From the IMG/VR virus record IMGVR_UViG_3300045922_000503, positions 35,250 through 99,249 of that record: DNA of 64,000 bases; one strand, written 5' to 3'. Every line of letters starts with the position of its first letter. The stretch's first letter is position 1. Shown here piece by piece: positions 8,082-14,955 of this stretch. Made by a program: the position numbers and the translations under genes. The notes under the pieces were generated by a model. It saw only the letters and a list, made by a program, of their open reading frames with translations, was not told the origin of the DNA and made no database searches. Origin of the DNA: a virus.

Positions 8082-8717
8082 ATGGGCCCCTGTCTTCGGC
8101 GCTATTCCATCCAGAAGGTTTCGTCCTTTCAGGACGCAGCGGGGCTCGGCGTAGTGGGGGCTGGTGTTGGCGCCCTGTCTGCAGCCAGCTTGCCTTCGGA
8201 AACCAACCGTCTTGCAGCGAGCACCCGCGCTGAGTGGCAGCGGGCATCACAGAGTTTGGATGGCCTGAGGTCAAGCTACTACAGGGATCTGGCAGAGCAC
8301 GAAAGGGTGAAGCCAGCCGCCCTTCGAGCTTACGAGGACAAGCTCACACAGGCCACTAGTGATCTCGACGCAGCCAGGCCGCGGGCCATGCAGGAAATCA
8401 AGAGGCTGGAGGGGTTCGCATTCTCTCCTAAAGAGAGGGCTCGACGTCTCGAGGGGATATCAAAAGCTCGGGGCGAAATAGGCGACCTAGTCGCCAGGCA
8501 ACGCGCTGCAGAAAAGTCCCTGAGGGACGCACGGCTGGCTTTCGATGGTACAGAGGCTGTTCTTGCCTCCCGAAAGATGGCGATTCCTACCGCCGAAGCG
8601 GCGGTTGAACAGGCTGCGCAAGCGATGCAAAGGTCTCAAATGGCAAGGCGCGTACGGATCGCCGCTACCGCAGGCAGCACTGGTGCTGCTGTCGGCGCCC
8701 TTGGGTTTTCACTATGA
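8082..8717 (+). CDS. Tagged helical protein with glycine-rich ends
   Basis: No family recognised; 211 residues. The N-terminus carries the shared tag (YSIQKVS, residues 7-13), directly followed by a Gly/Ala-rich hydrophobic stretch (about 20-36, GLGVVGAGVGAL). Residues about 45-185 are charged and Ala/Arg/Glu-rich and look like long helices or coiled coil. The C-terminus is again small and hydrophobic. AAGGAAA lies 6-7 nt before the ATG. It begins 17 nt after the polymerase stop, so it is probably cotranscribed with it. The layout of tag, membrane-like zipper and long helix suits an internal or ejected virion protein (inference). Confidence 0.8.
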   Translation: MGPCLRRYSIQKVSSFQDAAGLGVVGAGVGALSAASLPSETNRLAASTRAEWQRASQSLDGLRSSYYRDLAEHERVKPAALRAYEDKLTQATSDLDAARPRAMQEIKRLEGFAFSPKERARRLEGISKARGEIGDLVARQRAAEKSLRDARLAFDGTEAVLASRKMAIPTAEAAVEQAAQAMQRSQMARRVRIAATAGSTGAAVGALGFSL

Positions 8718-8726
8718 CGGTGGCCG

Positions 8727-8981
8727 ATGACCCCCTGTCTACGAGTTTATGTCATGACCAAGCTCTCCGGCCCGGACGATATCGCTTGGAACGCCATGTC
8801 CGGAGCGGTTCTTGGCATGGGCGGCGGACACCGAATCGCACAGGAGGTAGTGAATCGGATGGGCGCAGACCCGCTCACGCCTTCATTTGCCCGTCGAGCT
8901 TCTAGGATTCGCGCAGCAGGGTCGACGCTAGGAGCGCTTGGGCTCGGGGTCGTGGGGGCAGGAGTGGGGGTGCGCGCATGA
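8727..8981 (+). CDS. Small tagged glycine-zipper protein
   Basis: 84 residues, no known family. The N-terminal tag is YVMTKLS (residues 8-14). The C-terminal 22 residues are a Gly/Ala/Val zipper (LGALGLGVVGAGVGV), closely like the N-terminal zipper of the protein at 8082. GGTGG lies upstream of the ATG. The stop overlaps the next gene's ATG by four bases (ATGA), so translation is probably coupled. Membrane insertion or packing against another zipper is plausible, but nothing shows an enzymatic role. Confidence 0.75.
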   Translation: MTPCLRVYVMTKLSGPDDIAWNAMSGAVLGMGGGHRIAQEVVNRMGADPLTPSFARRASRIRAAGSTLGALGLGVVGAGVGVRA

Positions 8982-9703
8982 GCAATGACACAGACGCCTT
9001 CATCGCCTCCGTTCTGCTCCCTACGGGCTTGGCTACATCGACAGGATCGGTGGGAGGCGCTCTACTCGGAGGAAAGGCTATGGACGCGCTGGCGCGACGC
9101 GTCCTTCCCGAAGTCGGAAAAGCAGCTAACGCAGTCACTGCCCAGGTGGATGACATCCGGTCGCGCCTGCGGTCCGTAGGCAGCGTGATGGATGATACTG
9201 CCAGCGGGCTGGAGTCGTTGTCTCGAGGGGCGGCCAGAGCTCAGCAGGCCGCGGCGCCGGTGGTGACTGCCATTCACAGACTCCGCGGGAGTGCCCCTCC
9301 TGCTCCGGTCCCCTCGTTTGACCCTGCCGTAGACGCTCTTAGGGCTGCCCGTGCGCAGGTTGGGGGGTACGACGCAGCATTGGGTGCCGCACAGCGCGCC
9401 TTGGAGGACACCTTCAGTTCCGAGTCGTTGGGGAGACTCGGTCGCCGGTCTGTGGTGGGAGGGCGTATTGTCGGGGGAGTCGTTGGGGCGGGCGCGCTGG
9501 GGGTGCCGGTAGCCTCCGTCGCTACCGGTCTCTATTTTCTACGGGCCCTAAGGGATGCCTCTGCCGGATCAGGGAGTCTATCTAATGCAGGCGTGGAGAA
9601 AGCCTCTTCCACGGCGCTAACCCGACACATGCTGCGCAAGATGTCCTTCAGCCCCAAGGAGCGAATCACATGGGGGCGTGGGGAGGGCTACTTTCGGGCC
9701 TGA
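8978..9703 (+). CDS. Glycine-zipper protein with the tag near its C-terminus
   Basis: 241 residues, no known family. There is a hydrophobic N-terminal segment, a helical middle, and a Gly/Val-rich membrane-like stretch at about 163-188. Unlike its neighbours it lacks the tag at the N-terminus; near the C-terminus it carries TALTRHMLRKMS, which matches SALQRHILAKLS at the start of the helicase at 10214. A K-x-S-S tetrapeptide (EKASST) lies just before it. Residues about 91-110 ([17 protein letters not shown]) are shared, even at DNA level, with the protein at 13164. The start overlaps the preceding stop (ATGA). Confidence 0.78.
   Translation: MSNDTDAFIASVLLPTGLATSTGSVGGALLGGKAMDALARRVLPEVGKAANAVTAQVDDIRSRLRSVGSVMDDTASGLESLSRGAARAQQAAAPVVTAIHRLRGSAPPAPVPSFDPAVDALRAARAQVGGYDAALGAAQRALEDTFSSESLGRLGRRSVVGGRIVGGVVGAGALGVPVASVATGLYFLRALRDASAGSGSLSNAGVEKASSTALTRHMLRKMSFSPKERITWGRGEGYFRA
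9257..9309 (+). repeat. 53-nt direct repeat, copy 1
   Basis: Matches 13515-13567 at 52 of 53 positions. Both copies are read in the same frame and encode PVVTA(I/T)[12 protein letters not shown] in otherwise different proteins, which suggests recent recombination or copying of a short coding module. Confidence 0.9.
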
Positions 9704-9758
9704 CCTTACCTACGTGATGGACTACCTGAGGTAGCGCAGTGAGCGCGGTCAGCGCAGG

Positions 9759-13154: not shown

Positions 13155-13163
13155 AGGTGGGAC

Positions 13164-14057
13164 ATGGACCAGACCGTCAGAAACTACGCATTCTCCAAGC
13201 TCTCCTCGGCGTACTTCGATAAGGAGTCCGCTGGCTTCATGAGGCGGCTTGCCGACCAGCTACCCGAATCTTTCGGACCTTACAGAAACTGGAGCAAGAT
13301 AAACGATCGCCTAGCCCTAGAGGAAGTGTTGAACGACTGGTCAGTGGTGGGAAGGCGGACCGGTCCACCTAGACCTTTTGTGCGCGCGCCAGCTCCTGCT
13401 CCTGCTCCTGCTCCTGCTCAAGTACAGGCCCCGGTGCGGGCTCCTGCTCCGGTACAGACCCCGGTGCGGGCTCCTGCTCCGGTACCGGCTCCTGCTCCGG
13501 TACAGGCTCCTGCTCCGGTGGTGACTGCCACTCACAGACTCCGCGGGAGTGCCCCTCCTGCTCCGGTACAGGCCCCGGTGCGCGCGCCTGCTCCTGCTCC
13601 TGCTCCTGCTCCTGCTCCGGTACAGGCTCCTGCTATGGTACAGGCTCTTGAGCCGCAGCCGCAGATTACCAGCGTGGCCCGAAGTGCGGTGGAGGAGGTA
13701 TCTCCCCCCGTGCCGCAGAGTGCAGGAGGGGTAGGTACTGCAGAAGTCCTACCGGCCGCTGTCAAGCGGAAGCGGGCACCTCGTGCAAAACCTGCTCAGG
13801 ATCCTGCTCAGGCCCCGGTACAGGCTCCGGTACTGGCTCCGGCGCCTGCTCAGGCCGGGCAGATTACCGAGGTGGCTCAGGATGCCGTGGAAGGGGTATC
13901 TCCGTCCTTCTTGCAGAGAGCAGAGGGCTACGTAGCTGCAGACCCCAGGCGGGCCCTTGGCATCGGGGCAGCAGGCGGTGTGGCCCTCGCCGGCGGTGGT
14001 TACCTGGCGGGACGTTCCGGCCGTCCAAACAACCAGCCGATTATTGTTACCCGTTGA
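13164..14057 (+). CDS. Tagged protein with long Pro-Ala repeat and C-terminal glycine zipper
   Basis: 297 residues, no known family. Tag YAFSKLS at residues 8-14. Residues about 73-160 are an Ala-Pro-Val repeat that should form a stiff extended rod, broken by the shared [17 protein letters not shown] module. A basic patch ([10 protein letters not shown], about 195-204) and more Pro/Ala repeats follow. The C-terminus has a Gly/Ala zipper (about 260-285). The near-repeats [14 protein letters not shown] and [14 protein letters not shown] show internal duplication. A rod between tag and membrane zipper would suit a tethered or ejected virion protein (inference). Confidence 0.78.
13389..13640 (+). 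repeat. Tandem Pro-Ala coding repeats
   Basis: Imperfect repeats built on GCTCCTGCTCC and GCTCCGGTACAG units, coding Ala-Pro-Ala-Pro and Ala-Pro-Val-Gln. The repetition is at DNA level, so the length probably varies between relatives by slippage. Confidence 0.85.
13515..13567 (+). repeat. 53-nt direct repeat, copy 2
   Basis: Second copy of the module at 9257-9309, one mismatch in 53 positions, same reading frame, embedded within the Pro-Ala repeat. Confidence 0.9.
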
Positions 14058-14220
14058 CCCGGTAGCACCCATGGGTACCGCGTCCCAACGCTGAAACCGT
14101 CGTACGTGTCAAAGAAGCAACCTGCCCCGAATACGTCGGCCTGCGCAAGAGGGTACTTGGCAGGCCGGCGGTAACGTGACATCATCACGAGAGTCAGCAC
14201 CCACCTCTGAGAGCGACACC

Positions 14221-14955
14221 ATGAATGCACGGTCCTGTTTGATCAAGCTGGCCTCGGAAAGCGAGGAAGAGGAGCGGCGGCGCCGCCTCCGAGCCGCCGC
14301 CAATATGACCAAGGACGTAGCTGTTCCCACCGCGGTAGGTGCAGGAGCAGGTCTACTGGCTGGCGCAGTCGGAGGCAGCGCCATTGGAGCTGGCATGGGG
14401 GCCCTAAGCGTGGGAGGCCTGGGGTATGGAGTTCGCCAGGCCCTCCGAAATAGCCCGAACCCCCAAGCCGCCAGCATCCTATCCGCTATCCCTCGTCGTA
14501 CCCTAGCGGTCGGCACAGCACTGGGCGCCTTGGCTGGTGGCGCTGGAGGAGCACTTATGGGGGCTCAGACACTCCTGCCGCTGGGCGCCTTGGCAGGCGC
14601 AGGCGTGGGCGGTCTCAACGTCGCCAACAAAGCCGCGACGGGCCAGTACAAGGGGTCTTCCCCGGGGTACGTGGAGTACAATGGGTACGAAGAGCCTCCC
14701 AGTGTCCTCGGAGGTACGGCACGCGGCGCCTTGGGAGGCGCAGCCATCGGCGCCGGAGTCGGGGCAGCACTGCTAGGTGCACGAGGTCTTGCGCGTAGGT
14801 TCGGGGGTGAATCTGTCCGCGAAATGGCAGAGCTTTCGCGCCTCTCGAACCCAGCAAGACCCGTCCTAGGGATCTCCACTCTGGGGTTCGCTACCCCGGG
14901 CGCGATCTACGGCGGAGTCTCCGCCTCGCGTGATCGACGGCGGAGAGGGTACTGA
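14221..14955 (+). CDS. Tagged multi-zipper protein
   Basis: 244 residues, unknown family. ATG chosen at 14221 (GAGAG upstream); an in-frame GTG at 14176 would add 15 residues. A variant tag CLIKLAS is at residues 6-12, followed by an acidic-basic run SEEEERRRR that is shared, down to 20 identical bases, with the left edge of the window just before the polymerase Met. Three or four Gly/Ala-rich hydrophobic segments follow (about 37-75, 98-133, 163-188, 217-235), so it is probably a polytopic membrane or zipper protein. The next gene starts directly after its stop. Confidence 0.78.
   Translation: MNARSCLIKLASESEEEERRRRLRAAANMTKDVAVPTAVGAGAGLLAGAVGGSAIGAGMGALSVGGLGYGVRQALRNSPNPQAASILSAIPRRTLAVGTALGALAGGAGGALMGAQTLLPLGALAGAGVGGLNVANKAATGQYKGSSPGYVEYNGYEEPPSVLGGTARGALGGAAIGAGVGAALLGARGLARRFGGESVREMAELSRLSNPARPVLGISTLGFATPGAIYGGVSASRDRRRRGY

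Follow-up and report, generated by a model that had tools for sequence, protein, structure and literature searches.

A short shared leader on unrelated phage proteins as a candidate head-targeting and processing signal

Why should a run of otherwise unrelated proteins, encoded close together in one viral genome, begin with the same short peptide motif? The question is raised by the IMG/VR virus record IMGVR_UViG_3300045922_000503, a contig of 99,249 bases, of which positions 35,250 to 99,249 (64,000 nucleotides) form the stretch in question, hereafter the window; the presence of a terminase large subunit gene indicates that it belongs to a tailed phage. An earlier note on the window had listed eight proteins with a common N-terminal tag and had likened the tag to the capsid-targeting sequences (CTS) of the T4 internal proteins. 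The analysis reported here suggested that the tag is probably a head-targeting and processing leader, functionally similar to the T4 CTS, in which the code K-x-[A/S] replaces [L/I]-x-E.

The shared tag in this genome

All eight tags listed earlier were found in the open reading frames (ORFs) to which they had been assigned (Table 1), and the variant CLIKLAS in ORF 14221 and the HMLRKMS near the C-terminus of ORF 8978, which the same note had mentioned, were both confirmed in the sequence. Another five tagged ORFs were identified in the upstream part of the contig, L003 (YCLAKLS 9384, YCFSKLS 10306, FALRKLS 11193, YAVQKLS 13041, and YLLQKIS 15038). The tag is therefore carried within the first 45 residues by 13 ORFs of the contig, which encode otherwise unrelated proteins and form one block flanking both sides of the RNA polymerase gene. 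The consensus is [Y/H/C/F]-x-h-x-K-[L/V/M/I]-S (h, hydrophobic residue), in which K and S are invariant in all 13 tags, the first position is Y in 10 of the 13, and the third position is hydrophobic throughout. When the N-termini (first 45 residues) were shuffled in 2000 trials, the mean number of tags was 0.06 and the maximum was 2, and the expectation estimated from internal windows was 0.15; a chance origin of the 13 tags was thus rejected.

Unsupervised expectation-maximization (EM) recovered ARYALSKLSA from the N-termini of this genome, and a targeted motif test showed that h-x-K-x-S is N-terminally enriched (odds ratio (OR) 10.3, p=7e-8), while h-x-K-x-A gave no N-terminal enrichment in this genome by the same test. 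At the DNA level, the serine of the tag is encoded by TCG, TCC, TCT, or TCA and the leucine by CTC, CTG, or CTA, and the sequences upstream of the tagged genes differ from one another. The synonymous codon variation shows that a peptide is shared rather than a stretch of DNA copied, with selection acting on the peptide. The motif h-x-K-x-S was also observed near the C-terminus of three neighbours that carry no N-terminal tag (ORFs 8978-9703, 15735-16259, and 16544-17638); this count was not significant (p=0.07), and these ends may represent C-terminal cut sites.

Counterparts in related phages, the capsid protein, and the prohead protease

Single window proteins (helicase, RNA polymerase, and terminase) used as queries gave no matches in IMG/VR. 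The clade came into view with an RNA polymerase alignment that included the proteins of Salmonella phage Arash and Vibrio phage D69. This alignment gave 215 hits, of which 80 were kept, and the clade proved to be a large, mostly uncultured phage group which includes Arash and the Vibrio phages D69, D148, and D181. The ORFs of the relatives were called mechanically, with some starts being wrong, and the p-values should be read as guides, because the sequences are related by descent and the events are not independent.

The exact Y-x-h-x-K-[L/V/M/I]-S tag was not found at the N-termini of the relatives. In each relative, several unrelated ORFs were found to share a leader particular to that genome, with x-K-x-A as the common end after a hydrophobic or aromatic stretch. 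The spellings include MSLIKLA in G039, where about a dozen ORFs begin with it or with close variants, FDELEKIA and FLDELEKIS in G048, DEVEKIA and DELEKIA in G016, GFYKKA and GFAKSA in G025, MDKIAAYQ...LWxKxA in G009, and RWALEKIA in G028. A tag not conserved in related genomes would, according to the earlier note, refute its reading. If conservation is taken to mean the K-x-[A/S] core, the outcome favours that reading, while the full spelling of the leader differs from genome to genome. In 13 relatives, h-x-K-x-A was enriched in the first 40 residues (126/1762 ORFs versus 434/10803 internal windows, OR 1.84, p=2e-8), and no N-terminal enrichment was obtained for the control motifs h-R-A, h-E-A, h-K-E, and h-K-V or for the reversed motif. 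Targeted motif tests with controls separated the leader signal where a loose regular expression, pairwise BLOSUM comparison of N-termini, and unsupervised EM did not separate it from the controls in most genomes. A homologue of one tagged G016 protein was sought among isolate phages and was not found.

The tagged helicase served as a test case. The domains found in ORF 10214-11767 (Pfam Helicase_C, 1.1e-12; SNF2-rel_dom, 1.5e-9) identify an SNF2-type helicase, and in all nine relatives whose orthologue has a complete N-terminus h-x-K-x-[A/S] was present upstream of the helicase domain, again in a genome-specific spelling. Nine such leaders in nine would have a chance of about 2e-10 under independence, although the relatives are only partly independent. 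The helicases of G025 and G009 follow another domain within a fusion protein, with the motif inside the chain and, in G025, in the GFYKxA spelling of that genome; a cut site explains the retention of an internal leader better than an N-terminal docking peptide does.

The same motif was identified in two head proteins. The major capsid protein of the window, which is homologous to phage G gp27, was detected by a hidden Markov model built without it (E 1.4e-32), and its K-V-S aligns exactly under the K-I-A of the relatives. Just ahead of the N-arm helix of the capsid protein, K-x-A was found in 68 and K-x-S in 2 of the 74 distinct sequences. In the prohead protease, 83 of the 84 distinct sequences have K-x-[AS] in the propeptide ahead of the catalytic domain, 81 of them with A, in comparison to a chance of 5% for K-x-A in any 14-residue window. 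In 42 aligned protease rows the K is 98% and the A 93% conserved, which equals the conservation of the active-domain columns. The motif is surrounded by variable sequence, and it stands just ahead of the folded domain in the protease, the capsid protein, and the helicase alike. This genome has S at all three sites (K-x-S in the tags, K-V-S in the capsid protein, and K-S-S in the protease) where the relatives have A. Such a shared motif, changed jointly from A to S, would be expected were the tags, the capsid protein, and the protease itself all read by a single protease.

The assignment of the protease itself draws on several comparisons. In the predicted structure, LEKSSS lies in the disordered N-terminus and the catalytic domain has a predicted local distance difference test score mostly >80. 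The best PDB matches of the model were three chains of T4 gp21 (5jbl; probability 0.99-1.00, E 7e-3), with a herpesvirus protease ranking next, pointing to a prohead-protease fold for ORF 35342-36946. The window protein matches PHROG 18299 (E 2e-4), and the matches of a relative include gp77 of Rhodococcus phage E3, annotated as 'prohead protease', and gp13 of Gordonia phage Stormageddon, annotated as 'capsid maturation protease'; the whole protease alignment was too diverse as a query and closer subsets worked. The protease gene lies between the packaging and the capsid genes. From these sequence comparisons we infer that K-x-[A/S] would be the motif cut by the phage's own prohead protease.

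Some additional observations were made on these genes. The prohead protease genes of several relatives (L138:2040-5243, L127:2277-5003, and others) are enlarged to 900-1234 codons, and one of the enlarged genes matches a LAGLIDADG endonuclease, which suggests inteins in the protease gene. Bacillus phage G gp19 (L247:16840-17742) is a homologue of the window prohead protease (8.5e-38) with VKTAAK ahead of its catalytic domain, and K-x-A is also found at the start of several phage G head-region proteins. A DUF932 protein of the window (51858-53045; PHROG 1221, function not known) has K-D-A near its N-terminus.

A proposed head leader weighed against its alternatives

The capsid-targeting role proposed in the earlier note gained support from the occurrence of K-x-[A/S] in the capsid protein and prohead protease of the clade, from the likeness of the protease model to T4 gp21, from the joint A-to-S change, and from the presence of the orthologue of the tagged helicase in the Arash virion. 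In the mechanism that we propose, the Y-x-h half of the tag would bind the prohead core or shell, and the K-x-S half (K-x-A in the relatives) would be recognized, in P3-x-P1 form, by the gp21-like prohead protease of the phage. The protease, held in the prohead by the same kind of leader, would cut the capsid protein, the cargo, and itself after K-x-[A/S]. The tagged proteins, among them the SNF2-type helicase and the glycine-zipper proteins, would be gathered in the prohead and trimmed during maturation, and the freed cargo would stay with the DNA and be ejected with it, together with the virion RNA polymerase, whose gene stands in the tagged block. Binding by the tag, cleavage after K-x-S, and packaging of the tagged proteins in this phage are what we infer from the observations above.

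The layout of the tag, with an aromatic residue six positions before its end, a hydrophobic residue four positions before, and the P3-x-P1 pair at the end, is fitted by the spacing of the T4 IPIII leader, where an aromatic residue six positions before P1 is followed by P3-x-P1. The CTS of the T4 proteins IPI-IPIII, which is cut by gp21, is likewise a very short N-terminal leader on unrelated proteins, and it has the same order, with the targeting residues first and the processing residues last; in the ten-residue IPIII leader, targeting depends mainly on positions 4 and 7 and processing on positions 8 and 10 (PMC9026906). The differences are in the code, which is [L/I]-x-E in T4 and K-x-[A/S] here, and in the extent, with at least 13 proteins tagged here and a helicase among them; the likeness is one of layout and of proposed function. 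None of the 13 tags ends in E, as the T4 rule of cutting after [L/I]-x-E would have it, and the tag is therefore said to work like the T4 CTS and is not classed as a member.

The prohead proteases of T4, phiKZ, and SPN3US use P3-x-P1 motifs ending in E (PMC5694885, PMC10052503). SPN3US gp245 and phiKZ gp175 are likewise P3-x-P1 proteases acting on N-terminal head propeptides in RNA polymerase-packaging phages (PMC5694885, PMC10052503), but their motif is A-x-E or S-x-E, their propeptides are mostly of 111-254 residues with two only of 20-24, and they have no series of unrelated proteins under one short leader. In phage P1, the internal protein DarB is directed to the capsid by an N-terminal signal, which also takes a foreign reporter there (PMC9024508), although DarB is one very large protein, and its sequence and partners are unrelated to those described here as far as tested. 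Arash and D69/D148/D181 share with this phage homologous RNA polymerase, prohead protease, capsid protein, and helicase, with K-x-A in the capsid protein and protease, and they differ in that the RNA polymerase is split over two genes and leaders are far fewer.

Published data on purified Arash virions showed that the helicase gp217 is abundant (38 unique peptides and 1148 spectra; PMC10585845 Table 2), and that both RNA polymerase subunits, gp95, gp100, and the capsid protein gp226 are abundant there too, with the polymerase protein gp206 being the most abundant virion protein (PMC10585845). Among these virion proteins, gp95 starts with MSLHKLA and gp100 with MEKQAS.

Several points weigh against a head-targeting and processing leader. 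The capsid proteins of four relatives and the distant capsid protein of phage G, whose deposited chain starts at residue 1, are without K-x-A, and the K-x-A of the capsid protein could be structural and not a cut site. In Arash, the enrichment of the motif in the virion was only modest (9/69 virion versus 5/135 undetected proteins, p=0.016), and the published coverage of 99% for gp95 and gp100 and of 100% for gp221, gp223, and gp224 would, taken literally, cover the leader (PMC10585845). The coverage is a weak guide, as the published table also gives 100% where two unique peptides were found. The Arash helicase gp217 has no leader yet is packaged, which makes the leader one route into the head and not the sole route, and marks this class of protein as virion cargo.

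The same coverage values would be explained if the tag were an uncut docking peptide that tethers cargo to the capsid or core in the manner of encapsulin cargo, with K-x-[A/S] as a contact motif of capsid protein, protease, and cargo, and the occurrence of the motif in the capsid protein and protease would suit a common binding partner no less than a common cutting enzyme. We regard such docking as unlikely, given that the motif is located just before folded domains in an otherwise variable region, within a disordered segment in the protease, lies inside the chain of two helicase fusion proteins, as would a cut site, and has the P3-x-P1 form of the T4 and SPN3US sites. A very improbable alternative is that the tagged proteins enter the host envelope at DNA ejection and that the leader serves them as an amphipathic or membrane-directing N-terminus. 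It would agree with the glycine-zipper hydrophobic segment found in 10/14 tagged versus 10/70 untagged proteins of this genome and with the weak match of one tagged protein to Pfam Gly-zipper_YMGG, and it is opposed by the lack of glycine-zipper enrichment among the tagged proteins of the relatives (7/79 versus 96/1894, p=0.11), by the tag on the helicase, and by the same motif in the capsid protein and protease. The idea that a single 5' gene end was multiplied by recombination to give the tags, or that they act at the DNA level in translation or regulation, with no role for the peptide, is hardly credible despite the clustering of the tagged genes in one block around the polymerase gene, being largely refuted by codon and upstream differences around an invariant K and S and by relatives that keep the peptide pattern, in another spelling, on orthologous and non-orthologous genes.

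Taking the head-targeting and processing leader as the preferred reading, we would give a slightly better than even chance to its extension to the whole clade, in which a modular 'load and cut' code, h-x-K-x-[A/S], sends many unrelated proteins, the helicase and glycine-zipper proteins among them, to the heads of phages with a packaged cellular-type RNA polymerase of their own, with cargo, capsid protein, and protease drifting as a unit in each genome. The leader of T4 head cargo is the classic example, which has so far been near a special case, and literature searches returned no description of the leader reported here. If the reading is true, a second version of such a leader would be at hand, with another cutting code, on more than 12 proteins of one genome, and recognizable in hundreds of environmental phage contigs. 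Head cargo would then be predictable from sequence alone, providing a handle on proteins of unknown function injected beside the RNA polymerase, and the tag could serve directly to load phage heads with proteins of choice.

Features of the window and other observations

Table 1. Tagged ORFs, their neighbours, and packaging and head genes, with positions in the window
Feature	Coordinates	Strand	Remarks
Fused beta/beta' RNA polymerase	25..8064	+	Intein inside; homologue of Arash gp206; in the middle of the tagged block
Tagged ORF, 211 aa	8082..8717	+	Leader MGPCLRRYSIQKVS; tag YSIQKVS 8103-8123
Tagged ORF, 84 aa	8727..8981	+	Leader MTPCLRVYVMTKLS; tag YVMTKLS 8748-8768
Neighbour ORF, 241 aa, without N-terminal tag	8978..9703	+	HMLRKMS near C-terminus, 9626-9646
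Tagged ORF, 125 aa	9840..10217	+	Leader MTPSLRLYTFQKMS; tag YTFQKMS 9861-9881
Tagged SNF2/DEAD-like helicase, 517 aa	10214..11767	+	Leader MTSALQRHILAKLS; tag HILAKLS 10235-10255; orthologue of Arash gp217
Tagged ORF, 131 aa	11764..12159	+	Tag YALEKLS 11791-11811
Tagged ORF, 155 aa	12166..12633	+	Tag CALRKLS 12187-12207
Tagged ORF, 153 aa	12693..13154	+	Tag YALSKVS 12720-12740
Tagged ORF, 297 aa	13164..14057	+	Tag YAFSKLS 13185-13205; Pro-Ala-rich linker
ORF with variant leader	14221..14955	+	Leader MNARSCLIKLAS; CLIKLAS 14236-14256; K-L-A is the form of the relatives
Terminase large subunit	28877..30766	+	PHROG 675, 9e-36
Prohead protease	35342..36946	+	K-S-S motif (LEKSSS) 35399-35407 in N-terminal propeptide
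Major capsid protein	39978..41114	+	K-V-S motif (RTTKVSS) 40062-40070
Tag-type peptide MSYALEKLSRIGN			Paired with capsid peptide ARTTKVSSLND as candidate prohead-protease substrates

Glycine-zipper-like hydrophobic stretches were observed in many tagged ORFs and in untagged neighbours (window 8082-17638 and L003:9384-12095). ORFs 8978 (9267-9320) and 13164 (13520-13570), which are otherwise different, share an internal stretch starting with VVTA[I/T], a local copy between neighbours, and the linker of ORF 13164 is a long low-complexity segment at 13380-13640. The intein of the fused RNA polymerase is located at the catalytic NADxDGD motif (window ~4478-5950; Pfam Intein_splicing, 2e-6), and at its C-terminal junction, GAYVWD|T, Asp takes the place of the Asn usual in inteins. 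Outside the window, a gene for a MoxR-type AAA ATPase adjoins that of a VWA-domain protein on the minus strand (L002:1685-4276).

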